Below, in pieces: positions 16,649-30,107 of a stretch of 32,195 nt of DNA; position 1 is the first letter of the stretch; each line of letters begins with the position of its first letter. The position numbers and the translations under genes are program-made. The stretch lies in assembly GCA_011051685.1 (NCBI GenBank), contig DRKQ01000037.1, forward strand, positions 1 to 32,195, given 5' to 3'. The notes below the pieces were generated by a model. That model searched no databases and was not told the origin of the DNA. It saw only the letters and a list, made by a program, of their open reading frames with translations. This stretch comes from Gammaproteobacteria bacterium (GTDB lineage: Bacteria > Pseudomonadota > Gammaproteobacteria > SZUA-152).

Positions 16649-17956
16649 ATGAACCCATCAATTTCCCACACGCATCCCCTGCGCGGACTCATCATCCTGC
16701 TGATATGTTTCAGCGGGTTTGCCCAGGCCTCTGAACAGGACGGACTGTTTGCCGGCTCGGCGCAATTGTCCGCCCCACAACTCACCACAGCGATTCTGCG
16801 ACGCAATGCAGATATCACAGCCATGCAGGCAGCCTGGCAGGCGGCGCAGGCGCGTATCGAACAGGCAGGCGCCTTTGACGATCCCATGCTCGCCTATCAG
16901 CTCGCGCCGCAAACCCTGGGCCAGGACAGCATGGACACCGGCCACAAGCTGATGCTCTCCCAGCGCCTGCCCTGGGCGGGCAAACGGAAACTGCGCACCG
17001 CAGTTGCCCGGCATGAGGCCGATGCCTCACGTGAAGGTATCGCCCGCGCCCGCCTGCGCCTGAGCGAGGCCGCACGGCACACCTTTGCCGACTGGTACTT
17101 TGTGTACGCCGCGCTGCGCATCAACCGCATCAACCAATCCTTGTTGCTGGAATTTCAGCACATTGCCGAAACCAACTACGCGGCTGGCCGCAATACCAAA
17201 CAGGATGTGCTGCGTGCCGAGGTGGAGGCCACCTTGCTGGAGCATCGACACATTGTCCTGCAGCGCCAACGCCGCGAGGTCCAGTCTCGCATCAACACCC
17301 TGCTGCAGCGCCTGCCCGATGCCTACCTGCCCCCACCGGCGGCGCTGCCCCAACCTGTCGACCTGCCGAACATTGCCCAGCTACGCACACGGGCATTACA
17401 AAACCATCCCGCACTGCGCGCCTTGCAGGCACGACTACTGGCCGGGCAAAGACGGCTGGCCTTGAGCAAACGCGATTTTTATCCGGACATTACCCTCAAC
17501 GCCGCTTACAACAGTTTATGGAACCAGGAAGAAAAACGCCTGACCCTTGGCGCGGCCATCAATATTCCGTTAGGCGATAAACGCAAGGCGGCCAGCGATG
17601 AATCCCGCGCCCGACTGCTGCGCCTCGATGCACAACAAAAGACCACGGTTGCCGAGATTCTCGATACCCTGCAACGCGCATACGAACAGGTACAGGAAAG
17701 CCGGCATGTCCTGAGGCTCTATACCGACCGTCTGCTGCCGCTGGCCGAGGAAAATCTCGCTGCCGCACGATCCGATTACGAGTCCGGCCGTGGTGGCTTT
17801 CTCGATCTCATCAGCGCGGAAAAAAACCGCATACAGACCCAGCTGCAACAGGAACAGGCTCGGGCGGATTACCACCGCCGCCTGGCCACACTTGAACGCA
17901 CAATGGGTGGCCCATTGAACCCGCAAGACAACTTATCCGGGAGCCCGGCACAATGA
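16649..17956 (+). CDS. cusC: TolC-family outer-membrane efflux protein
   Basis: A 435-residue protein with a signal peptide (RGLIILLICFSGFAQA) and two outer-membrane efflux repeats rich in coiled-coil helices (residues about 45-225 and 245-425). The pattern LSQRLPWAGKRKLRTAVARHEADA near residues 108-131 is typical of heavy-metal TolC partners. It forms the trimeric outer-membrane duct of a three-part pump. A GAAGG ribosome binding site precedes the start. It overlaps the adaptor gene by 4 bases, so cusC, cusB and cusA form one tight operon. The symbol is by analogy with CusC. Confidence 0.9.
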   Translation: MNPSISHTHPLRGLIILLICFSGFAQASEQDGLFAGSAQLSAPQLTTAILRRNADITAMQAAWQAAQARIEQAGAFDDPMLAYQLAPQTLGQDSMDTGHKLMLSQRLPWAGKRKLRTAVARHEADASREGIARARLRLSEAARHTFADWYFVYAALRINRINQSLLLEFQHIAETNYAAGRNTKQDVLRAEVEATLLEHRHIVLQRQRREVQSRINTLLQRLPDAYLPPPAALPQPVDLPNIAQLRTRALQNHPALRALQARLLAGQRRLALSKRDFYPDITLNAAYNSLWNQEEKRLTLGAAINIPLGDKRKAASDESRARLLRLDAQQKTTVAEILDTLQRAYEQVQESRHVLRLYTDRLLPLAEENLAAARSDYESGRGGFLDLISAEKNRIQTQLQQEQARADYHRRLATLERTMGGPLNPQDNLSGSPAQ

Positions 17957-19398
17957 CTCAACGACTCATTTCTCCGACTGTTTATTTTTTCTTCATCCTG
18001 GCAGGCCTTGTGGCTGCCAGCCTGTTGCCCACTAGCCCCGTACTTGCCGGAAATGATGACTTCGTCTCCGCCGGCCCGTACAAGGTGCGCGTGGAAGTGG
18101 ATCCCGAGACGCCCAGGGTGGGACGCAACCATCTCACACTCTGGTTGCTGGATGAAAACGACCAACCCCTGAGTGGTGCCACTCTCAAAGCGGTGGCGGT
18201 GATGCCGGCCATGGGCAGCATGCCCGCCATGTATGCCCCGGCGGAGATGATCGAGACAGCCCCCGGTCGTTACGAGGGTGAGTTCGAACCCTCCATGGCG
18301 GGTGAATGGCCCCTGACCATCGAGATCACCACACCCGCCGGCAGCGGCGAGATTCGCTTTGATCTCGCCACCGGGCGCAAGGGGCTGCGCTGCTCCACCT
18401 GCGGCACACGGGCGGCATCGCCAGGCACCATCCACGTGGATCCTGCGCGGCGCCAGCTCATTGGCATCACCAGCGGTCGGGTCCTGCGCCAGGACCTGCG
18501 CATCACTATTCGCGCCACCGGCAGTGTGAACTATGACGAAACCCGCCTGCACGACGTGGCCCTCAAGTTCAATGGCTGGATCGGTCGCCTCTATGCCAAC
18601 GCCATCGGCAAGCCCGTGAAGAAGGGCCAACCGATGTTCACCGTGTACAGTCCGCAACTGCTCGCCGCCCAAGAGGAATACCTGGAGACCCTCAGGCGTC
18701 TGCGCTCGCGCAACGCCAAGGCCAATCATCTGCTGGCCGCGGCACAACGACGCCTGCGCCTGTGGGACATCACGCCGCAACAAATCAAGGCACTGGAAAA
18801 ACGCGGCAAGGCGCTGGAATATGTGCCCATCGTCGCCCCCACGGATGGGGTGATCGTGAACAAGGCCATTGTCGCCGGCTCCGCCTTCAAGGCCGGCCAG
18901 CGCCTGTTGCGCCTCGCCGACCTGTCCCGGGTGTGGGTGGAGGCTCAGGTCTACGATTATGAGCTGCCGCTGATCAGGCCAGGCATGCCCGCCAGGGTGG
19001 TGTTGCCGGACCTGGAGGATCGCGAATACCCGGGACGAGTGGATTTCATCTACCCCTTCATGGAAAACGACACCCGCAGCGCGCGGGTACGTGTGGTGCT
19101 GGACAACCGCGACGGTTTCCTGCGCCCGGACATGTACGCCCACATTCACCTGGTGGCCGACCTGGGGCCGCGCCTGCTGGTGCCGGAGTCCGCCGTGCTC
19201 TATACCGGGCAGAGCCGGGTGGTATTTCTCGACTTGGGCGAGGGCAAGCTGGCGCCGCGCAAGATCAAGACCGGGCGCCGCAACCGTGACTGGATCGAGG
19301 TGCTGGAGGGCCTGCAGGAGGGCGACAAGGTGATCACCTCCGGCAACTTCCTCATCGCCGCGGAAAGCAAACTCAAGGCGGGGGTCGAGCAATGGTAA
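17953..19398 (+). CDS. cusB: Periplasmic adaptor (membrane fusion) subunit of heavy-metal RND pump
   Basis: A 481-residue protein with an N-terminal membrane or signal segment (VYFFFILAGLVAASLLP). Three parts follow. Residues about 35-135 are a FixH/YtkA-like beta domain (YKVRVEVDPETPRVGRNHLTLWLLD). A short segment at about 139-160 has a single CSTC pair. From about 160 on lies the CusB adaptor core: GSVNYDETRLHDVALKFNGWI, an alpha-hairpin (LAAQEEYLETLRRLRSRN), the lipoyl half (YVPIVAPTDGVIVNKAIVAG) and beta-barrel domains. The usual metal-binding domain with CPMHP is reduced to the CSTC segment. It connects CusC with CusA and can hand metal to the pump. Confidence 0.92.
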   Translation: MTQRLISPTVYFFFILAGLVAASLLPTSPVLAGNDDFVSAGPYKVRVEVDPETPRVGRNHLTLWLLDENDQPLSGATLKAVAVMPAMGSMPAMYAPAEMIETAPGRYEGEFEPSMAGEWPLTIEITTPAGSGEIRFDLATGRKGLRCSTCGTRAASPGTIHVDPARRQLIGITSGRVLRQDLRITIRATGSVNYDETRLHDVALKFNGWIGRLYANAIGKPVKKGQPMFTVYSPQLLAAQEEYLETLRRLRSRNAKANHLLAAAQRRLRLWDITPQQIKALEKRGKALEYVPIVAPTDGVIVNKAIVAGSAFKAGQRLLRLADLSRVWVEAQVYDYELPLIRPGMPARVVLPDLEDREYPGRVDFIYPFMENDTRSARVRVVLDNRDGFLRPDMYAHIHLVADLGPRLLVPESAVLYTGQSRVVFLDLGEGKLAPRKIKTGRRNRDWIEVLEGLQEGDKVITSGNFLIAAESKLKAGVEQW

Positions 19399-22300
19399 AC
19401 CAGAAACAGGGGCCCATCGAGTGGCTCATCGGCTACTGCGCCCGTAATCAACTATTGACCCTGCTTGTGGTGATGGCGGCCACCTTCGCCGGCTATCGCG
19501 CCCTGCTGCAGACCCCGCTGGACGCCATTCCCGATCTCTCCGACGTGCAGGTGATCATCTACACCCAGTGGCCGGGGCGCAGTCCCGACCTGGTGGAGGA
19601 CCAGATCACCTATCCCCTGTCCACTACTCTGTTGGCGGCGCCGGGGGTGGCCTCGGTGCGCGGCCAGAGTTACATGGGCCTGTCCTTCGTCTATGTCATC
19701 TTCGACGAAGACACGGACATGTACTGGGCCCGCTCGCGGGTCATGGAATACCTCAACTCGGCCATGGGCGACCTGCCACAAGGCGTGCGCCCCACCCTCG
19801 GCCCGGACGCCACCGGGGTGGGCTGGGTGTTTCAGTATGCGCTGGAAGACAAATCCGGCAAGCACAACCTCGCCGAGCTGCGCAGCCTGCAGGACTTCAC
19901 CCTGCGATACTGGCTGGAGTCCGTGGAAGGTGTGGCCGAGGTGGCCTCGGTGGGAGGCTTTGAAAAGGAATACCAGATCCAGTTAGACCCCAACAAGCTG
20001 GCGGGCTATGGCATCCCGTTGAAAAAAGTCGCCGAGGCGGTGCGCCGCTCCAACAATGACGTAGGCGGCCGGGTCCTGGAGATCGCCGGCCATGAGCAAT
20101 TCATTCGTGGCCGGGGATACATCAAAAACAAGGAGGACATCGAGGACATCGCCATCGGCCTGGGCAAACAGGGTGTGCCGATCCTGTTGCGCGACGTGGC
20201 CGAGGTCAGTCTGGGCCCGGCCATGCGCCGCGGCGTGGCCGACCTGGACGGCGAGGGCGAGACCGTGGGCGGTACCGTGGTAATGCGCTACGGGGAAGAC
20301 GCCCTGGGTGTCATTGAACGCGTCAAACAGAGACTTGCCGAGGCGCAGAAAGCACTACCCGAGGGCGTGAACATCGTCACCGTGTATGACCGCTCCTCAC
20401 TCATCAATCGCGCCATCGATACTCTCAAAGACACCCTCACGGAAGAGATGATTGTGGTATCGCTGGTGATCGCCCTGTTCCTGCTGCACTTTCGCTCGGC
20501 GCTCATCGCCATTCTCACCCTGCCGGTGGCTATTCTGTTGTCGTTTATTCCCATGTCCGGACAAAACCTGACGGCCAACATCATGTCCCTGGGTGGCATT
20601 GCCGTGGCTATCGGCGCCATGGTGGATGCCTCCATCGTGATGATCGAGAACATCCACAAGCGCCTGGAGGAATGGGAGGAACATGGCAGGAAAACACAGC
20701 GGAGCACGGTAATCATCGAGGCCATGCAGGAGGTGGGACCGAGCATCTTTTTCTCGTTACTCATTATCACCGTTTCCTTCCTGCCGGTGTTTGCCCTGGA
20801 GGGTACCGAGGGCCGCCTGTTCAAGCCCCTGGCCTACACCAAGACCTACTCCATGGGCTTCGCCGCCCTGCTGGCCATTACCTTTACCCCCGCACTGGCG
20901 GTGCTGCTGATCCGCGGCAAGATACGCGGCGACAAGAGCCCCATCAATCGTGCCCTGGTAGCCATCTACACCCCCATCGTGCGCCTGGCGGTGAAACTGC
21001 GCTGGCTGGTGGTGGGAGGCGCCGTGGCTGCCCTCGTCGTTACCGTGCCGGTGTTTTTACAACTGGGCAACGAGTTCATGCCACCGCTCAATGAAGGCAG
21101 TATTCTTTACATGCCCACCGCCACGCCGGGCATGTCCATCACCGAGGCGGGCAAGGTGATGCATGCCATGGACAAGGAACTGAAGGCCTTCCCGGAGGTG
21201 GAGCGGGTGTTCGGCAAGATGGGCCGCTCCACCAGCCCCACGGACCCGGCGCCCCTGTCCATGGCCGAGATCGTCGTCACCTTCAAACCCCGGGATCAGT
21301 GGCGTGAAGGCGTCACCTGGGAGAGCCTGCTGGCGGAGATGGACCAGCAGCTGCGTTATCCCGGCATGCCCAACGTCTGGTGGATGCCCATCCAGACCCG
21401 TACCGAGATGCTCGCCACCGGGATTCGCTCCACTCTGGGCATCAAGGTCTTCGGCGACGATCTGCAAACCGTGGAGGCCACCGGCATCCGCATCGAAAAG
21501 GCACTGCAGGGCGACGAACGCACCGCACCCTACACACGTAGCGCCTTCGCCGAACGCATCAGCGGCGGCTATTTTCTTGACTTCGACATCGACCGCAAGA
21601 AGATCGCCCGTTACGGCCTCAACGTGGCCGACGTGGAGGATGTGCTTATGGCGGCGGTGGGTGGCATCACTGTCTCTGAAACCGTGGAAGGCCGCGAACG
21701 CTATGCCATCAACCTGCGTTACGCGCGCGATTTCCGTGACGATCCTCAGGCCCTGAAACGTGTCCTGGTACCCACTCCCTCCGGCGCGCAGGTGCCCCTG
21801 GCGCAACTGGCGGAGCTCAATTTCCGCACTGGCCCACCCATGCTGCGTAACGAGAACGGACAGTTGGTGGGTTACGTGTTCGTGGATGTCAATGACAAGA
21901 TCGGCATCGCCGACTATGTGAACGCCGCCAGGCAGGTGGTACAGGAAAAGGCCGAGGTACCGCCGGGTTATCGCCTGGACTGGGCGGGCCAATTCAAGTA
22001 CTTCGAACGTGCCAAGGAAAGGCTCAAGATGGTGGTCCCACTGACCCTGTTCATCGTTTTTTTCATGTTGTACGTCAACCGCAAGTCGGTGGTGGAATCA
22101 CTGATCATTCTCCTCGCCGTACCCTTCTCGCTCATTGGCGCCGTGTGGCTGCTGCATTTTCTCGACTACAACCTCAGCGTCGCGGTATGGGTAGGCATGA
22201 TCGCCCTGGCCGGGCTGGATGCAGAAATGGGCGTATTGATGATGCTCTACCTTGGCATGGCCTATAAAAAGCGCAAGGCAGAGGGGCACCTGGTCTCGCG

Positions 22301-22562
22301 TCAGGATCTCAGCGAGGTCATCAGCGAGGGTGCCGGGCGCCGCATACGCCCCATGCTGATGACCGGCATGGCCCTCCTATTGGGCCTGATCCCCATCCTC
22401 TGGAGTGACGGCAGCGGCGCCGATGTGATGAAACGTATCGCCGCACCCATGATCGGCGGTATCGCCTCAGCCCTGGTCACGGTATTGGTGCTGTTCCCCG
22501 CCATCTTCGCCATCTGGCGGGGATTGGGACTGGACACGGCATCAACAGCCAACAAGCAGTGA
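19392..22562 (+). CDS. cusA: Heavy-metal RND transporter, Cu(I)/Ag(I) type
   Basis: A 1056-residue inner-membrane pump of 12 membrane helices and two large periplasmic loops, close to CusA (1047). The proton-relay segment GAMVDASIVMIENIHKRLEEW has the single Asp and Glu pattern of HME4 (CusA), not the Asp-Asp pattern of CzcA. Methionines expected to carry Cu(I)/Ag(I) are present: LYMPTATPGMS, PLSMAEIV and TEMLATGIRS. The RND markers PLDAIPDLSDVQVI and PGVASVRGQS are near the N-terminus. It overlaps cusB by 7 bases. No metal-responsive regulator gene lies beside the operon. Confidence 0.96.
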   Translation: MVNQKQGPIEWLIGYCARNQLLTLLVVMAATFAGYRALLQTPLDAIPDLSDVQVIIYTQWPGRSPDLVEDQITYPLSTTLLAAPGVASVRGQSYMGLSFVYVIFDEDTDMYWARSRVMEYLNSAMGDLPQGVRPTLGPDATGVGWVFQYALEDKSGKHNLAELRSLQDFTLRYWLESVEGVAEVASVGGFEKEYQIQLDPNKLAGYGIPLKKVAEAVRRSNNDVGGRVLEIAGHEQFIRGRGYIKNKEDIEDIAIGLGKQGVPILLRDVAEVSLGPAMRRGVADLDGEGETVGGTVVMRYGEDALGVIERVKQRLAEAQKALPEGVNIVTVYDRSSLINRAIDTLKDTLTEEMIVVSLVIALFLLHFRSALIAILTLPVAILLSFIPMSGQNLTANIMSLGGIAVAIGAMVDASIVMIENIHKRLEEWEEHGRKTQRSTVIIEAMQEVGPSIFFSLLIITVSFLPVFALEGTEGRLFKPLAYTKTYSMGFAALLAITFTPALAVLLIRGKIRGDKSPINRALVAIYTPIVRLAVKLRWLVVGGAVAALVVTVPVFLQLGNEFMPPLNEGSILYMPTATPGMSITEAGKVMHAMDKELKAFPEVERVFGKMGRSTSPTDPAPLSMAEIVVTFKPRDQWREGVTWESLLAEMDQQLRYPGMPNVWWMPIQTRTEMLATGIRSTLGIKVFGDDLQTVEATGIRIEKALQGDERTAPYTRSAFAERISGGYFLDFDIDRKKIARYGLNVADVEDVLMAAVGGITVSETVEGRERYAINLRYARDFRDDPQALKRVLVPTPSGAQVPLAQLAELNFRTGPPMLRNENGQLVGYVFVDVNDKIGIADYVNAARQVVQEKAEVPPGYRLDWAGQFKYFERAKERLKMVVPLTLFIVFFMLYVNRKSVVESLIILLAVPFSLIGAVWLLHFLDYNLSVAVWVGMIALAGLDAEMGVLMMLYLGMAYKKRKAEGHLVSRQDLSEVISEGAGRRIRPMLMTGMALLLGLIPILWSDGSGADVMKRIAAPMIGGIASALVTVLVLFPAIFAIWRGLGLDTASTANKQ

Positions 22563-22663: not shown

Positions 22664-22693
22664 AGAAACCTCTGATTAATTTATGGAACGCGA
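22664..22693. repeat. 30-bp repeat, copy 2 (element-end-like)
   Basis: It matches 27 of 30 bases of the copy at 2341-2370, in the same orientation. It lies about 100 bases after cusA and 35 bases beyond the stop of the copD-like gene. A shorter match to its left half (AACCTCTGA) is at 24127-24135, just before the cyclic-nucleotide-binding gene. No transposase fragment is adjacent. Confidence 0.55.
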
Positions 22694-22727
22694 TCTTGCG
22701 ACTGAAATCATCCATCGCGGCAGGCAC

Positions 22728-23183
22728 TCATACATATCTGCCTGCACCGGCGATCACCACTACTACAAGCCCCAGGAGCAGATTCACGCCGATAATCACC
22801 CGAATCTGCGCCAGCCGCCGTCCGGCCTCCGGCAGATCATTATTCGCCAATGCCTGCTTCATGCGCCGATAGGGTGCGAAAAACACGTGGAAAAAAAGCA
22901 GCATCATCAGAATACCAAGACCCGCCATCAAATGGACATAAGACCCCACAGAGGCAAAGCCATCAAACACGGAGAATACCATCCAGAAACCTGTGGCCGT
23001 CAGGGTGATCACCGACACCCACACCCAGGGAAAAAAGCGCGCAAAGGTCTGCGACCAGAGCGGTAATCGTTGAGGCGGCTCCAGCAGACTGGCAGCCACC
23101 GGGCGCAGAGCCATGTAGGCAAAAAACATCCCGCCCACCCAGACCACGCTGGCCAACAGATGTAGGGGAATGGCGATAAACAT
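22728..23183 (-). CDS. CopD-family membrane protein
   Basis: A 151-residue inner-membrane protein with four membrane helices. The first helix holds the CopD pattern PLHLLASVVWVGGMFFAY with its conserved histidine. The others include FFPWVWVSVITLTATGFW, YVHLMAGLGILMMLLFFHVFF and VIIGVNLLLGLVVVVIAG. Histidines at membrane edges (HLLAS, YVHLM, FFHVF) could bind copper or haem. CopD proteins are linked with copper uptake or resistance, which fits its position opposite the cus operon (convergent, stop codons 165 bases apart). It follows the decayed yqaA gene by 27 bases on the same strand. Confidence 0.85.
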   Translation of the reverse strand: MFIAIPLHLLASVVWVGGMFFAYMALRPVAASLLEPPQRLPLWSQTFARFFPWVWVSVITLTATGFWMVFSVFDGFASVGSYVHLMAGLGILMMLLFFHVFFAPYRRMKQALANNDLPEAGRRLAQIRVIIGVNLLLGLVVVVIAGAGRYV

Positions 23184-24141: not shown

Positions 24142-24573
24142 ATGCAATTGAAAGAACAAGACCACCACAGACTCTTCGATGATCTATTGAATATTGAAGA
24201 TCGCAAATTCCTGCTTAAACATGGAAAGATTCATAATGCAAGCAACGGTGATGTTCTGTGCCATCAAAACCAGATCAGCAACAATTTATTCGTCGTTCTT
24301 CAGGGTGAAGTAGAAGTCTCTGGAAAAACGGGCGAACAATCCAAGGTGCTCGGCACACTCAGCACCGGCGACCTGTTTGGAGAAATCTCCGCACTTTTGT
24401 CCATACCTCGTATTGCTACCGTCACGGCAAAAAAGACCTCAATCATTCTCGAGATCAACATCACTGACTTCGTCAAACTGCTGGAACGATCCCCCAAGCT
24501 GAAAGACATTGTCTATAAACGACTCAGCGAACGATCCATAAAAACATCGATACTTACACAACCAGAAAGCTAG
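24142..24573 (+). CDS. Single-domain cyclic nucleotide-binding protein
   Basis: A 143-residue protein made almost wholly of one CNB domain (residues about 15-130). The beta-barrel turn NNLFVVLQGEVEVSG is present. The phosphate-binding cassette FGEISALLSIPRIATVTA at 79-96 keeps Glu81 and Arg90, which contact the ribose and phosphate of cAMP or cGMP in this fold. There is no DNA-binding, kinase or channel domain, so it would act by binding a partner or as a regulatory subunit. It lies 90 bases after the YCII gene on the same strand. A short match to the 30-bp repeat lies just before its start. Confidence 0.85.
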   Translation: MQLKEQDHHRLFDDLLNIEDRKFLLKHGKIHNASNGDVLCHQNQISNNLFVVLQGEVEVSGKTGEQSKVLGTLSTGDLFGEISALLSIPRIATVTAKKTSIILEINITDFVKLLERSPKLKDIVYKRLSERSIKTSILTQPES

Positions 24574-24997
24574 GATTTTTTTGCAACACCACCTTCTGAC
24601 ACACTAAGGCAAATACTGTAGGGCAACTTTCCTGGGACGAATCACACCAGGAAAGTTGCTCCCACATGGGGAACAAACCCTCAAGCAATTATTTTGAGAC
24701 GATTCTCAAACGACTGTCTGAAATTTTGGGCCCGCTTCTTTGGATATCAACGAAGCAGAAATGATGGCCGTTTTATCCATAGAAAAAATTGCCGGACGAT
24801 GGTTGACCCATCAAATCAGATTAAGCAAAAAGTCTTATTCATAAATAATTATATAACACAGCGTGTTTTATGCTTATTCTTGTGAACATTATGTGTAATA
24901 TCTACTAAACGTTTGATACTTAAAAACAATAAAAACAATGGACTAACGCTCAAATTATATTTATCAGTATAAACATTCGCATAAGGGGGTAATGCTA
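24574..24997. other. AT-rich intergenic region before selD
   Basis: About 420 bases without a supported gene. The first part holds hairpin repeat copy C. The rest, from about 24700, is strikingly AT-rich and must contain the selD promoter. A small inverted repeat AACAC AGC GTGTT lies at 24855-24867. A ribosome binding site AAGGGGG at 24983-24989 precedes selD. No riboswitch or SECIS-like structure was recognised. Confidence 0.5.
24618..24665. repeat. Intergenic hairpin repeat, copy C
   Basis: Left arm GTAGGGCAACTTTCCTGG pairs with right arm CCAGGAAAGTTGCTCCCAC, with one missing base in the left arm. The arm centre reads CAACTTTCC/GGAAAGTTG, changed on both sides relative to copies A and B. 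The segment after it (AGCAATTATTT, then GAGAC) matches copy B. It lies just after the cyclic-nucleotide-binding gene. Confidence 0.8.
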
Positions 24998-26221
24998 ATG
25001 AGAAATAAAACAGGTAGTCGATTTACCGATGGAATAGTCAAAAACGTCAAAGAGACTGATTCGGAGTCCGTTGAAAGTAAGTATCAGGGTTCGTCAAAAT
25101 CTGAAAAAATTGAGTTCTATTCAAGAGACTCAACACCCTCTCCCACATGCGAAGTCAAGCTCACTGACCTGTCAACAGGAGGTGGCTGTGGCTGTAAGAT
25201 CGATCCAGCTGCGCTGCACGAAATGCTTCAGGATGTTCCACATCACCTGGATCACGAGCAGCTACTGGTCGGCATTGCTCACAAGGACGATGCTGCCGTT
25301 TATCAGATAAGTGATGATCTAGCGCTTATTTTCACTAATGACTTTTTTACCCCTATGATCGACGACCCCTATACCTATGGTCGTATCGCTGCAGCCAATG
25401 CTCTGAGTGACGTCTACGCCATGGGAGGTGAGCCCATCATGGCCAATGCCATCGTTGGTATGCCGGTCAATCAGATCCCCATGGAGCACATCCAGCAGAT
25501 CATGAAAGGAGGCGTGGACATCTGTCACGATGCCGGCGTTCCAATCTCTGGAGGACATAGTATCGACAACCCACAGCCCATTTATGGTTTGGCTGTAGTG
25601 GGTAAAATCAATCCAAAGTGCATCAAGGCAAATTCCAGTGCCCGGGAGGGCGATCTATTATTGATGACAAAGGCTCTGGGCGTTGGCGTAATTTCTACCG
25701 CGATCAAGTTAGGTAGGCTTTCTCACCTGGATCACTCAGGATTTTTCGATAATATTACTGCCGTCAACACTGCAGGCCACTGGCTTGGCCGGCAAGAAAA
25801 AGTGCACTCGATGACTGATATCACTGGCTTTGGTTTGGCAGGTCACTTAGTGGAAATGGCTGAAGGGGCAAATGTCACTATGCGTATCGACGCCTTGTCG
25901 GTACCTGTACTTGACGATGTTCATGCCTTTATTGATGAAGGCCTTGTGCCAACGGGCGCATATCGCAACCTTCAGGCATACGATGAAAAGATGTCTTTTC
26001 ACGGAGGTACTTGGGAAGCTGACGATAAGTTGGTATTTACAGATCCACAAACAAATGGTGGGCTACTGTTTTCTGTTGACCCAAGCGCTGTCTCATACAT
26101 TTCCGATGAACTGATAAGCATGGGCCTTGAAATCCCCTCTATTATTGGTGAGGTAAAAAAATATGCCGGCAACGGTCAGCACGTAATCTTTGAAAGAAAT
26201 CACACCACATTGAGACATTGA
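24998..26221 (+). CDS. selD: Selenide, water dikinase (selenophosphate synthase) with N-terminal extension
   Basis: SelD makes selenophosphate from selenide and ATP, the selenium donor for all known specific selenium uses. I place the start at the ATG at 24998, 8 bases after AAGGGGG; an ATG at 24992 sits too close. Seen: the glycine-rich active-site loop GGGCGCKIDP (catalytic Cys64 and Lys67, matching E. coli Cys17 and Lys20; Cys, not Sec), the DDAAVYQ metal site, TNDFFTPMIDDPYTYGRIAAANALSDVYAMGG, and GGHSIDNPQPIYGLAVVGK. About 47 residues before the loop have no E. coli counterpart and are charged and low-complexity. No selA, selB, selU or senA/senB is nearby. The gene is much AT-richer than cus or nrdJ. 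Confidence 0.95.
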   Translation: MRNKTGSRFTDGIVKNVKETDSESVESKYQGSSKSEKIEFYSRDSTPSPTCEVKLTDLSTGGGCGCKIDPAALHEMLQDVPHHLDHEQLLVGIAHKDDAAVYQISDDLALIFTNDFFTPMIDDPYTYGRIAAANALSDVYAMGGEPIMANAIVGMPVNQIPMEHIQQIMKGGVDICHDAGVPISGGHSIDNPQPIYGLAVVGKINPKCIKANSSAREGDLLLMTKALGVGVISTAIKLGRLSHLDHSGFFDNITAVNTAGHWLGRQEKVHSMTDITGFGLAGHLVEMAEGANVTMRIDALSVPVLDDVHAFIDEGLVPTGAYRNLQAYDEKMSFHGGTWEADDKLVFTDPQTNGGLLFSVDPSAVSYISDELISMGLEIPSIIGEVKKYAGNGQHVIFERNHTTLRH

Positions 26222-26294
26222 ATCTCTTAAAGCCTCATCGCGTTACCGCTAATATTTAATAATTAAACATCAACATTTCCGGGATTTATAAGTC

Positions 26295-27386
26295 ATGCCT
26301 TATCAAATGATTGGCACACGCCGAAGCGGAACTAACCTGTTGCGCGTAATGATAGACCAGCTTCCTGGCTTCTCTGCTCCACAAAGCACTCATGAGCTTG
26401 AATACTTTACTCCTCTCGTCCCGTACTACCCTGATCTAAACGTCGACAGCAATTTCATGCAGTTCATCGATGACATGTGTCGCTGTGTCGAGTTGAATCC
26501 GGCAAAATGGGATGGTGTTGTACTGGATCGCTACGAGATCTTCAATCTCTGCAGGGAGCGGAGCATTGTTGCAATATTCGACGCCATCAACGTCACGGCT
26601 GCTTTGCAAGTCAAGGGTGCCAAGGACTGGATGAGCAAATGCCCAAACTACATCAACTATGCAGAAAGCTTTGAGCAATATTGGGGAGAGGATATCAAAT
26701 ATATTTATATGTACCGAGACGGTCGCGACATTGCCCTCAGCTTCACAAAGGCCGTTGCTGGTGACAAACACCATTACTTTATTGCTAAAGAGTGGGCAAA
26801 GACGCAACGCGCTGCCCAGTCCCTCAAGAGACGGATCTCACCTGACAGGTTTTTCAGCGTTTGCTACGAAGAACTGCTGCAGGATCCTGAGGAAGTTTGT
26901 CGTAGGACCGCTGCTTTCCTCGGACAGCCTTATACCCCGGACATGCTGAAATTCTATGAGAACAAGTCGGCGAAGATTGCTGCTGCGTCAAGCTCCTTAT
27001 GGGAAAATATAGCAAGCCCTATCAATACCAATAATTCTAAAAAATGGCTGGCACAATCAAATGAAAGCGATATTCATATCTTTGAGAGTGTTGCGGGTGC
27101 GGAACTGGAGATGCTGGGCTATGAGCGCGTCACAGATTATGACCTGTCCTTTACTGTAGAAGAAATAGAAACCTTTTCCCAAATCAACAATTCGCGCAAG
27201 GAAAAAATTATGAAAACGGCGCATCCAGATGACATGAAAAGGAGAAATGCGCAAAAAGCCCATGCCGACCAGGTTCGAATACGGCTGGGGGTGCCTGATC
27301 ATATTCAATATGATGGCAACATGATCCACAAAAAAACGGTAGTCGGCAACTCAGATCAATCCACTACGACCACTACAATGGCGTAA
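26295..27386 (+). CDS. Sulfotransferase-family protein
   Basis: A 363-residue protein. The N-terminal P-loop-like motif MIGTRRSGTNLL (residues 5-16) fits the 5'-phosphosulfate site of PAPS-dependent sulfotransferases. The 3'-phosphate motif YMYRDGRDIALSF is near residues 138-150. ERFF-type segment PDRFFSVCYEELLQDPEEVCRRTAAFLG and the later NNSKKWLAQ also match the family. The C-terminus (about 300-363) is charged and ends in a Ser/Thr-rich tail. The acceptor is unknown. It lies 73 bases after selD, and its stop overlaps the ATG of the permease gene, so at least these two are coupled. A role with a selenium-bearing substrate is inference from position only. Confidence 0.82.
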   Translation: MPYQMIGTRRSGTNLLRVMIDQLPGFSAPQSTHELEYFTPLVPYYPDLNVDSNFMQFIDDMCRCVELNPAKWDGVVLDRYEIFNLCRERSIVAIFDAINVTAALQVKGAKDWMSKCPNYINYAESFEQYWGEDIKYIYMYRDGRDIALSFTKAVAGDKHHYFIAKEWAKTQRAAQSLKRRISPDRFFSVCYEELLQDPEEVCRRTAAFLGQPYTPDMLKFYENKSAKIAAASSSLWENIASPINTNNSKKWLAQSNESDIHIFESVAGAELEMLGYERVTDYDLSFTVEEIETFSQINNSRKEKIMKTAHPDDMKRRNAQKAHADQVRIRLGVPDHIQYDGNMIHKKTVVGNSDQSTTTTTMA

Positions 27387-28126
27387 TGGATAGCACAACG
27401 ATCATAATCCCGCTTGTTACTTTTTTCACCTCGTTACTCACCGGTGTAGTGGGCATGGGTGGTGGTCTCGTTTTACTGTTGATAATGGCAAGTTTTTTAC
27501 CGTTTGCTGTACTCATCCCGGTTCATGGTATAAACCAGCTTGTTCAGCACGCAACGCGTGCCGCAGTGAGTATTCCTAATATCGACCGGAAAATCGCACT
27601 GGAGTTTGGGGCCGGGGCGGTCATCGGCGCAGCGATCGGGTCACAATTCGTAACCAGCGTAACCGAAGAGCTTTTCAAGATACTCTTGGGAGGTTTCATA
27701 CTGGCTTGCCTTGTTGTTCCAAAACTCAACATCAAGATGCCAAAAATCCCCGGGGAATGGCCCATCATTGGTGCGATAACAAGCTGTGTCGGGCTATTTA
27801 TTGGTAATACCGGGGTATTTATGTCGCCATTCTATCTGAATCGCGGACTCAAGAAGGAACAGCTCGTTGCCACAAAATCCGCCTGCCAGGTTGCTGTCCA
27901 TTCCACAAAGATCGCGGCCTTTGTCGCCCTTGGTTTTACACTCGGCCCCTACCTGCTCCTAGTGATCCTGATGGGTATTGCCTCCTTTGCCGGCTCATAT
28001 TTATCCAAGAAGGTGCTTGGTAAATTGTCCGAGGAGGTTTTTTTGCTGCTCTTCCAGGTAACCATCGTTTTACTTTCCCTGAAATTGATTATTGGTGGCC
28101 TAAACGACATCTATCACCTCTGGTAA
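27386..28126 (+). CDS. TauE/SafE-family anion permease
   Basis: A 246-residue inner-membrane protein with about seven or eight helices in two repeats. The first has FFTSLLTGVVGMGGGLVLLL with the family's G-x-G-GG motif and PVHGINQL. The second repeat has CVGLFIGNTGVFMSPFYLN followed by LKKEQLVATKSACQ and then HSTKIAAFVALGF, the matching family motif. Members move sulfite, sulfonates, sulfoacetate or related anions across the membrane. The ATG overlaps the last base of the sulfotransferase stop codon. Together these suggest export or import of the sulfotransferase product or substrate. Confidence 0.88.
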   Translation: MDSTTIIIPLVTFFTSLLTGVVGMGGGLVLLLIMASFLPFAVLIPVHGINQLVQHATRAAVSIPNIDRKIALEFGAGAVIGAAIGSQFVTSVTEELFKILLGGFILACLVVPKLNIKMPKIPGEWPIIGAITSCVGLFIGNTGVFMSPFYLNRGLKKEQLVATKSACQVAVHSTKIAAFVALGFTLGPYLLLVILMGIASFAGSYLSKKVLGKLSEEVFLLLFQVTIVLLSLKLIIGGLNDIYHLW

Positions 28127-28178
28127 ACTCATATAAAACAACCACTTACACGTCACCCGCCCCGCTCTTGTAACCCCT

Positions 28179-28200
28179 GACCTACATCCGGTCGTTTTTT
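28179..28200 (+). terminator. Weak intrinsic terminator candidate after the permease gene
   Basis: GACC, a 7-base loop, GGTC, then G and six T. The stem is only about 4-5 bp, so termination would be partial at best. It would separate the selD-permease transcript from the sensor kinase gene. Confidence 0.3.
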
Positions 28201-28222
28201 GAACAAAAACATTTAATGAATC

Positions 28223-28260
28223 CGGCGTGTTTGCCGATAAATGTATTGCTTTGTCAATAC
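28223..28260 (+). promoter_or_regulatory. Two small inverted repeats before the sensor kinase gene
   Basis: CGGC GTGTTT GCCG (28223-28236) and GTATTG CTTTGT CAATAC (28243-28260) lie in tandem, 39 bases or more before the ATG at 28299. Each could be an operator half or an RNA hairpin in the leader. Confidence 0.3.
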
Positions 28261-28298
28261 GTTATCGCTGTCAGCTAAGTATAAGAGAATAAACATCA

Positions 28299-30107
28299 AT
28301 GCATTTCAGCCAAACATCTTTCCGTCGAGAGGGTGGTCTATCGAGCTGCCTGATGATCTCGATCTCGCTGATGTTGCTGACTGTGGTATTTCACCAAGCC
28401 GCCCATGCTGCCAGCAATAACAATAATACTCTTCGTGTAGCGGCTACAAATTCATTGCTTGATTCTGGGGTTATGACTGCCCTGCTGGATGACTTCAAGC
28501 GACGTCACCCCGAAATAAAGATTGAAGTCGTACATGGAGGTGCCCTTCAGGTGCTCAAGCAGGCACGCGAGGGAAAAGCCGATATTGTTATCTCTCACCA
28601 CCCTCCTGGAGAGAAGCGCTTTGTTGAACGTGGTTATGGTCGGGATCGTGCCCATTTCGTTTACAGTGAATTTGTACTGTTCGGCCCTCCTGGGGAGATT
28701 CCCGAATTGAGTAAGTCGACAGATATAATTTCGGCGTTAAAAATACTCGCAAGGGAAGAAGTCGATTTTCTCGTACCTTCCTCGCGGTCAGGTGTATTTG
28801 CAATCATTGAAGAACTGTGGGCGGCGGCAGGCATCGACCCCTCCTGGATAGGTTATGAGAACACGGGAATCAGTGGAGCCGCAAACCTCCTGCAAGCTGC
28901 CGACATGGGGGCATATACGATAATGGATTACGGCACCTATATCGTCAACAGAGACAAATACGGAGACAGGGTTGCGCCAATATTTCGCGGGGACATCGCA
29001 TTACGGAATATTTATAGTGTAATTATTGTCAACGGGAAAAAAGTCAATGGTGTAAATGAAAAACTGGCGCAGGTACTTTATGACTATCTCGTGGGTGATG
29101 ACGGACAAAGAGTTGTGGAACATTATGGGGAAGATAAGCTGCACGTATCTTTTCTTACCCCAGCGGCTGCATTCGATCCCTTTTTACGCAGAAAAAGGGC
29201 TGAGGACGCAGCCCGGGAATCAGCCAGAAACCTTGAAATAATGACCACCCTGTTTGCTGGTGTAAGCATTTTACTTGTGCTCACAATCTTATTATTCCTT
29301 CGTGTTCGCTATATCGAGAAAAGAAAAAGGGAATCAGAAAAATTTGCTGAATCATGTGCGGAGGATAGAGATTCAGCACAACATGCCAATGAGTTAAAGA
29401 GCCGCTTCCTGGCCAACATGAGCCATGAAATCCGGACGCCTCTAAACGCCATCATCGGGTATAGTGAATTACTGGAAGAGGACGCGGTCAATGAGGGCAA
29501 TACTCAATATGCACAGGATCTTCAGAATATCGAGTCTGCCGCCCACCACCTGCTTTCCTTAATCAACGATGTACTGGATTTATCCAAGATAGAATCCGGC
29601 AATATGATAATGAACATTGAGGAAGTCGATATCATTGATATTGCCCAGTCAGCTGTATCAACCATCAGACCGCTAGCGGAAAAAAATGGTAATCAGGTGC
29701 ATTGTGATATACGCGCTGAGAATTGTGTGATCCACGCAGACGAAATGAAACTGAGCCAGATCTTACTGAATTTGCTTAGTAATGCGTGCAAATTTACGGA
29801 GAACGGCCATATTTCATTGACCGTCAGCGTGGAGTTCAGCAACAACCAGAAAATATGCGTCTTTGAGGTGTGTGACACGGGCATCGGAATTAATAAGGAG
29901 GCTCAGGCCAGTATCTTTGACGCCTTCGTCCAGGCTGAAGATAGTACATCACAAAAATATGGTGGCACTGGTCTCGGTTTGGCTATCACCAAGAGGTTCT
30001 GCGAGATGATGCATGGTGAAATTCTGTTGCAAAGTGAGGAAGGAAAAGGTAGCTGCTTCATTGTTAAACTACCCGCGGATGCAGAAGTTATACAGGTAGC
30101 AGTGTGA
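28299..30107 (+). CDS. Sensor histidine kinase with TupA-like (tungstate-binding type) periplasmic domain
   Basis: A 602-residue protein. A signal or membrane segment (about residues 15-33) is followed by a periplasmic substrate-binding domain (44-290) that reads like TupA, the tungstate-binding protein: LRVAATNSLLDSGVMTALLD, then ALQVLKQAREGKADIVISHH and RGYGRDRAHFVYSEFVLFGPPG. A membrane helix spans 314-335. The kinase core has the H-box LANMSHEIRTPLNA (His376), N-box LSQILLNLLSNACKFTENG, DTGIGI and GTGLGLAITKRF. There is no receiver domain, and no response regulator gene is in the window. It starts 172 bases after the permease. The ligand is probably an oxyanion (tungstate, molybdate, or possibly a selenium or sulfur oxyanion). 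Confidence 0.88.
   Translation: MHFSQTSFRREGGLSSCLMISISLMLLTVVFHQAAHAASNNNNTLRVAATNSLLDSGVMTALLDDFKRRHPEIKIEVVHGGALQVLKQAREGKADIVISHHPPGEKRFVERGYGRDRAHFVYSEFVLFGPPGEIPELSKSTDIISALKILAREEVDFLVPSSRSGVFAIIEELWAAAGIDPSWIGYENTGISGAANLLQAADMGAYTIMDYGTYIVNRDKYGDRVAPIFRGDIALRNIYSVIIVNGKKVNGVNEKLAQVLYDYLVGDDGQRVVEHYGEDKLHVSFLTPAAAFDPFLRRKRAEDAARESARNLEIMTTLFAGVSILLVLTILLFLRVRYIEKRKRESEKFAESCAEDRDSAQHANELKSRFLANMSHEIRTPLNAIIGYSELLEEDAVNEGNTQYAQDLQNIESAAHHLLSLINDVLDLSKIESGNMIMNIEEVDIIDIAQSAVSTIRPLAEKNGNQVHCDIRAENCVIHADEMKLSQILLNLLSNACKFTENGHISLTVSVEFSNNQKICVFEVCDTGIGINKEAQASIFDAFVQAEDSTSQKYGGTGLGLAITKRFCEMMHGEILLQSEEGKGSCFIVKLPADAEVIQVAV

Follow-up and report, generated by a model that had tools for sequence, protein, structure and literature searches.

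In the NodPQ-NodH and RaxPQ-RaxST systems, genes for the synthesis of 3'-phosphoadenosine 5'-phosphosulfate (PAPS) are accompanied by a sulfotransferase specific to the system and by a means of export, and are sometimes plasmid-borne. Outward is also the usual direction of transport of the TauE/SafE and CHR proteins, two families of permeases. The present study concerns a window of 32,195 nucleotides, i.e. the entire contig DRKQ01000037.1 of the gammaproteobacterial assembly GCA_011051685.1 (3.36 Mb, 308 contigs, 93.65% complete), in which a sulfotransferase (ST) gene adjoins a gene for a TauE/SafE-family permease. The pair is part of a block of four genes, all on the plus strand, the other two being selD (selenide, water dikinase) and the gene for a sensor histidine kinase whose periplasmic domain is TupA-like (Table 1). 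We consider it about an even call whether this low-GC block is a variant of a module in which a PAPS sulfotransferase is combined with a permease and a sensor for anions, with selD as a passenger or add-on.

Three further systems are relevant here. AioX and ArrX are described in PMC5908839 as periplasmic sensors of arsenic oxyanions acting in signal transduction. For true TupA, PMC5517513 reports that binding was lost with the substitution R118E and reduced with R118Q, whereas the R118K protein still held tungstate. Orphan SelD proteins, whose selenium use is unexplained, are recorded for at least 26 organisms in PMC5029168.

The sulfotransferase family and its gene neighbourhood

The window ST contains the motifs RRSGTNLLR and YRDGRDIALSF, in which the core residues are invariant. 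We take RRSGTNLLR and YRDGRD to be the 5' phosphosulfate loop and the 3' phosphate motif, respectively, and by these loop motifs the protein is predicted to be of the PAPS-dependent type. The closest solved structures by profile are the CurM ST, another polyketide synthase domain (4gox) and TPST.

Among 274 genomes of the class (the source genome included), four other STs scored 228-298 bits and the rest no more than 91 bits. A CHR-family gene adjoins all four of these top-scoring STs, which had been chosen for alignment A1 by their ST score and not by their neighbours. Scanning one genome per species, for 84,980 species, with the pattern of this alignment gave 55 loci, which together with L087, L180 and L181 make up the 58 family loci considered here; left out of the 62 target entries were the window itself, L088 (a near copy of L087), and L182 and L183 (duplicates of L079 and L077). 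The family is present in Pseudomonadota, Nitrospirota, Bacteroidota and Cyanobacteriota, and its members strongly conserve motifs lying beyond the PAPS loops, namely PHPPH and DDVCRLVELNPVPW. The window ST is at most 49% identical to family members, is separated by a wide score gap from distant STs and belongs to this CHR-linked family.

The 58 loci were compared with 24 control loci, i.e. 24 of the 27 places of distant STs from the class-wide search, some of which have short flanks, and the gene families at the loci were scored by profiles built for the purpose. A CHR gene was found within 3 kb of the ST at 50/58 family loci, every time on the same strand, and at 0/24 controls (P 3e-14, a value that, like those given below, treats the rows, many of them related, as independent, and sets controls from one class against loci from four phyla). 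Because only 28 of the 58 loci have full flanks of ~7 kb, these counts are lower bounds; CHR is present in 24 of those 28. An adenylylsulfate (APS) kinase gene lies within 3 kb of the ST at 17/58 loci vs 0/24 controls (P 0.002), and a gene for a PhnD/AioX-like binding protein at 21/58 vs 0/24 (P 2e-4). Gene order falls into 13 patterns among the loci, the membership persisting. Taken together, these data indicate that ST, permease and anion sensor form a genuine module, which is widespread and apparently has not been described.

The layout of the window was also seen, with other permease and sensor families, in one Nitrospirae locus (L086), where the gene for a kinase fused to a PhnD-like domain directly follows the ST-CHR pair, so that ST-CHR-PhnD::HisKA matches the ST-TauE-TupA::HisKA of the window. 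On a conjugative Serratia plasmid (L087:5994-12035), a self-contained ATPS-APSK-TauE-ST-CysQ-chrA run stands beside transposases; the two Serratia plasmid records are near-identical, and in one of them, pJSRIV004_1, TauE adjoins a related ST. These two were also the only close matches (42%) among the 11 plasmid records matching the window ST, and of 25 pattern matches on viral contigs none was confirmed.

Compared with solved structures, the PhnD-like protein of L058 is nearest to PtxB, followed by phosphonate binders, AioX and ArrX; that of L032 gave weak matches only (HtxB, E 0.004). Genes for methyl-accepting chemotaxis proteins accompany the ST-CHR pair and the PhnD-like genes at L039-L043, L033, L034, L054 and L057 (by Pfam at L033 and L054, by clustering at the others), which suggests chemotaxis toward the same ligand.

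In Bacteroidota, an arylsulfotransferase (ASST) gene shares a run with the ST at seven loci, as ST-ASST or ASST-CHR-ST. These runs suggest an exported sulfuryl carrier, i.e. that an exported sulfated compound could be the sulfuryl donor outside the cytoplasm. At L078:6956-9377 and L081:6911-9741 the gene for the PAPS-independent arylsulfotransferase directly follows that for the ST, which may connect a sulfotransferase inside the cytoplasm with one outside it.

A tree was calculated that includes 10 of the 24 control STs and leaves out L080, where the ST is split. The window ST stands there on a long branch within a set of 39 rows with support 86/92, below the star threshold of the tool; its terminal branch (1.48) is the longest of the family and makes its placement unsure. 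The Serratia ST, which likewise has a TauE neighbour, is not its sister in this tree. At L032, L035, L046 and L050, a second and more distant ST is encoded a few kb from the family ST, and these paralogues form a supported tree group of their own.

Permease, sensor kinase and selD

The ST stop and the permease start overlap by 1 base, as had been noted in a preliminary description of the sequence. From its profile match, which is far above the cut-off, the permease is predicted to be an anion permease of the TauE/SafE family; the best plasmid match to it is 34.5%. No CHR match is present in the window, and since TauE replaces the adjacent CHR of the relatives, the window should be regarded as a variant, not a member, of the ST-CHR module.

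In the kinase, the TupA-like periplasmic domain extends over ~28410-29130, and its closest solved relative by sequence is the tungstate-binding protein 3lr1 (E 2e-34). When the binding pocket is compared with the residues named in PMC5517513, T10, S12, H59 and D170 are kept, and the changes are T9A, T11N, R118P and T124V; the TTTS of TupA thus reads ATNS. With R118 gone, the ligand is probably bound otherwise than tungstate is in TupA, and these pocket changes make a plain tungstate sensor doubtful. No receiver domain was found in the kinase, the scan of adjacent genes turned up no response regulator, and none of the 58 family loci has a TupA-like gene within 7 kb of the ST. Plasmid matches to the kinase amount to at least 5000 records, and none among the matches listed covers 80% of the query.

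SelD appears intact. Its score of 386 bits compares with a curated cut-off of 125, and it is the one SelD above cut-off in the genome. Apart from ~50 extra N-terminal residues, it aligns over nearly the full length with E. coli SelD (3u0o), GCGCKI and GGHSID being retained and its GGGCGCKI pairing with GAGCGCKI of the E. coli protein; the Cys and Lys of the GCGCKI motif are presumably catalytic. A ribosome-binding-like GGGGG stretch lies upstream of the selD ATG, and the start at 24998 proposed initially is the second in-frame ATG.

The genome was searched for selA, selU, senB, yqeB and the selenocysteine (Sec) tRNA, and not for selB or senA. Neither selA nor yqeB was found in this 93.65% complete genome, the best match was 22.5 bits vs a cut-off of 220 for selU and 38.6 bits vs 300 for senB, and tRNA-Sec reached 43.8 bits vs a gathering threshold of 47 (150 of 518 first-look candidates were scored). 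Four of the five best tRNA-Sec candidates, those inspected, are tRNA-Ser or tRNA-Leu according to ARAGORN. A service of SelD to selenocysteine, selenouridine, selenoneine or a selenium-molybdenum hydroxylase is therefore without support, and selD looks like an orphan in this assembly of 308 contigs for the families searched.

No SelD gene was found within 7 kb of the ST at any of the 58 family loci (0/28 among those with full flanks), and no ST, TauE or TupA-like gene was found within ~1.5 kb at any of 30 other SelD loci, namely the 29 best-scoring of 101 matching genomes plus L153. The four genomes of the class with the closest STs have no selD above cut-off. A conserved selD-ST unit is thus rejected for the loci surveyed. 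SelD matches occur in 149 plasmid records, with identity below 60% in all. In another genome of the phylum (L132), a CHR-profile match lies within ~1.5 kb of a SelD gene.

These results divide the claims of the preliminary description. It saw no known selenium-user genes near selD, and within the range of the search none was found above cut-off elsewhere in the genome. The grouping of ST, permease and sensor also stood, recurring with CHR in the place of TauE and with PhnD/AioX-like proteins in that of TupA, but a membership of selD is not supported: the adjacency of selD to such an ST and permease in other genomes, on which the description had staked its proposal, failed at 0/58 ST loci and 0/30 SelD loci. 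The other finding that it named as refuting, selA and selB elsewhere in the genome accounting for selD, did not turn up in a search that found no selA and did not take in selB, so that a use of selenium is not explained away. The central proposal, selenophosphate feeding a product of the ST and TauE, is without support from conservation, and no evidence that selD serves the module was found. The position of selD, as a passenger or add-on beside the ST module, is unexplained.

Base composition and origin of the block

Profile searches bore out the four same-strand genes and their families as first described, with selD starting at 24992. The four genes have a GC content of 46-48% and a GC at third codon positions (GC3) of 0.47-0.55. 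The corresponding values are 57-64% and 0.68-0.82 for the outer membrane efflux gene, the gene at 17953-19398, the RND pump, the TSCPD gene and nrdJ, and 59-64% and 0.68-0.83 if nrdJ, the efflux pump genes and the M1 peptidase are considered. The block is therefore AT-richer than its cus and nrdJ flanks, as had been claimed, but the contrast is not unique to it, because the DUF4396 gene (50%), the YciI-like gene (51%), the gene at 22683-23066 (55%) and a gene for a protein with a cyclic nucleotide (cNMP)-binding domain (44%) are low as well. Since these include the cNMP-binding gene, the low-GC stretch starts to the left of 24998. By Pfam, the product of this gene has no DNA-binding domain; the gene is a possible left part of an acquired stretch. 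At eight ST-family loci, members of one protein cluster (cluster 7) are present, and the single member scanned with Pfam is a Crp-type regulator with a helix-turn-helix.

The block is probably acquired DNA. In 23 other genomes of the order, TauE and close ST matches at E 1e-8 were found in 0/23, G064 having a distant ST (26%), and a SelD match at E 1e-60 is missing from 22/23; in the sole SelD-bearing genome (G666), selD is directly upstream of selU/MnmH. No convincing repeats flanking the block borders were seen among the matches listed.

Table 1. Position of the block genes and adjacent features in the window.
Feature	Position	Strand	Basis
cNMP-binding-domain protein	24142..24573	+	PF00027 2.6e-18, sole family found; GC 0.438
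selD (selenide, water dikinase)	24992..26221	+	TIGR00476 386 bits; NF002098 417 bits
ST (PAPS-type sulfotransferase, Sulfotransfer_3)	26295..27386	+	PF13469 9.8e-21
TauE/SafE-family permease	27386..28126	+	PF01925 8.8e-23; 81.6 vs cut-off 32.6 bits
Terminator-like hairpin and T run, TauE-kinase gap	28178..28194	+	Terminator-like site scan
Sensor histidine kinase, HisKA and HATPase behind periplasmic binding domain	28299..30107	+	Pfam

Elsewhere in the window, the run at 16649-22562 (outer membrane efflux protein, the 17953-19398 gene and RND pump) corresponds to the genes first described as cus-like, with a GC content above that of the block. A protein with eCIS_core (PF13699) and DUF3238, a type linked to extracellular contractile injection systems, is encoded at 515-1768.

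Possible function and comparison with known systems

If the block is a variant of the ST module, it may work as follows. The TupA-derived sensor kinase would read a periplasmic anion. The ST, as its family and motifs suggest, would use PAPS, supplied by the genome's own APS kinase (found with 228 bits), to sulfate a small acceptor, and TauE, in place of the CHR of the relatives, would carry the resulting anion out; export is suggested by the tight ST-TauE pairing and because TauE/SafE and CHR proteins usually transport outwards. selD would have come with or next to the block, and is intact, with no selenophosphate user found in the genome as searched.

Several observations weigh against this reading. 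TauE is beside the ST in only 1/58 other loci (with a TauE profile built from two sequences), and a terminator-like hairpin stands between TauE and the kinase, so that the kinase may have a separate transcript; the hairpin itself is weak evidence, because 13 such sites were found on both strands vs 6.3 expected in shuffles. An arginine three residues past the R118 position could substitute for R118. Nearby PhnD-like genes are on the strand of the ST in 8/21 cases, linkage is not significant for CysQ (7/58 vs 1/24 within 7 kb) or for ASST (7/58 vs 0/24 within 3 kb, P 0.1), and at five loci, two of them short-flanked, the ST is without same-strand CHR, APSK, ATPS, CysQ, TauE or ASST within 6 kb. 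In the tree, 2 of the 10 control STs, on long branches, fall on the family side of the midpoint root. Finally, among 59 near-invariant columns, i.e. those conserved in at least 95% of the other 57 family rows, the window ST is changed at 10 and the next worst row at 5. Being the most divergent member, it may no longer do the same job as its relatives; this divergence and the replacement of both the permease and the sensor by other families are the reason for speaking of a variant, in which the acceptor may differ. From the ST divergence and the loss of R118, both the ST substrate and the signal read by the sensor may differ from those of the relatives.

A different account would have CHR and TauE move an inorganic anion, either sulfate inwards for PAPS or sulfite or a chromate-like anion outwards, the ST and sensor then being part of an oxyanion stress response. 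The CHR proteins tested (5/5) do exceed the cut-off of TIGR00937, the NCBI chromate efflux subfamily model, sulfate activation genes occur within the module, and the solved structures nearest to the L058 protein are binders of phosphite, phosphonate, arsenite (AioX) and arsenate (ArrX). Yet it is left unexplained why the constant member is an ST, whose motifs beyond the PAPS loops are strongly conserved, and no metal or arsenic resistance gene besides CHR was seen among the neighbour proteins scanned with Pfam; we regard this account as rather unlikely, if worth keeping in mind. It is less probable, in our opinion, that a low-GC acquired stretch brought together selD, the ST-TauE pair and the kinase from separate sources, with no function shared among them. 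Such a juxtaposition would fit the absence of conserved adjacency for selD and for the TupA kinase (0/58 each), the hairpin upstream of the kinase and the further low-GC genes of the window, but not the recurrence of ST, permease and anion sensor at other loci or the similar GC of the four genes.

There is then the idea that selenophosphate from SelD yields a selenium metabolite modified by the ST and exported by TauE. In its favour are an intact and apparently orphan SelD, of a sort recognised in other organisms, the position of selD on the same strand and 73 bp upstream of the ST with no plus-strand terminator-like site in the gap, the low GC common to selD and the module genes, the lack of a close counterpart of the block in the order, and changes at conserved ST positions compatible with an altered acceptor. 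Against it, SelD and the other block genes are not associated in the ST and SelD loci surveyed, the genomes of the class with the closest STs lack selD above cut-off, and no selenium-inserting enzyme is visible beside selD, so that we think it improbable indeed. Its fuller form, in which selD was added to a pre-existing sulfation-export module, the selenophosphate of the orphan SelD goes into a small molecule sulfated by the divergent ST and exported by TauE, and the TupA-derived sensor is tuned to selenium or another oxyanion, appears a shade more improbable still.

To the extent that the variant module is the correct reading, one conserved ST is tied across four phyla to a family of oxyanion sensors and to the CHR and TauE permeases, which are poorly understood, and all of these gain a testable physiological role; the Bacteroidota loci suggest a source of the sulfuryl donor for the extracytoplasmic arylsulfotransferase, and the apparent orphan selD is a place for testing a selenium trait. 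Among the open-access papers searched, none was found on a sulfotransferase, a chromate transporter and an adenylylsulfate kinase together, and no description of a coupling of CHR or TauE with a sulfotransferase was found among the titles and beginnings of abstracts listed. The words sulfotransferase and TauE are not in the main text of PMC5322559 (candidate selenium genes), PMC9312934 (a review) or PMC5029168.

The module resembles NodPQ-NodH and RaxPQ-RaxST in joining PAPS synthesis genes, a sulfotransferase of its own and an export route, but it has CHR or TauE as permease where those systems have NodIJ or RaxABC, it is linked with binding-protein sensors, and no Nod or RaxX substrate gene is present among the module neighbours scanned. 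With three-component sensing by AioX and ArrX, as presented in PMC5908839, it shares a PhnD-superfamily sensor and a histidine kinase, relatives of which are beside ST-CHR genes; in contrast, the sensor domain in the window resembles TupA and forms one protein with the kinase, and no arsenic genes were seen among the scanned neighbours. Compared with TupA, as described in PMC5517513, the window domain is of the same sequence family and has 4/8 of the named pocket residues, but is kinase-fused, has R118, T124, T9 and T11 replaced and has no adjoining tupBC. Like the orphan-SelD organisms in PMC5029168, the genome has a SelD without known selenium traits, as searched here; that paper names isochorismatase-like, ABC ATPase and cysteine desulfurase-like genes as neighbours, whereas those in the window are a sulfotransferase and TauE. 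Finally, with CHR chromate transporters and TauE/SafE exporters the module has the permease families in common, which are here coupled to a sulfotransferase.

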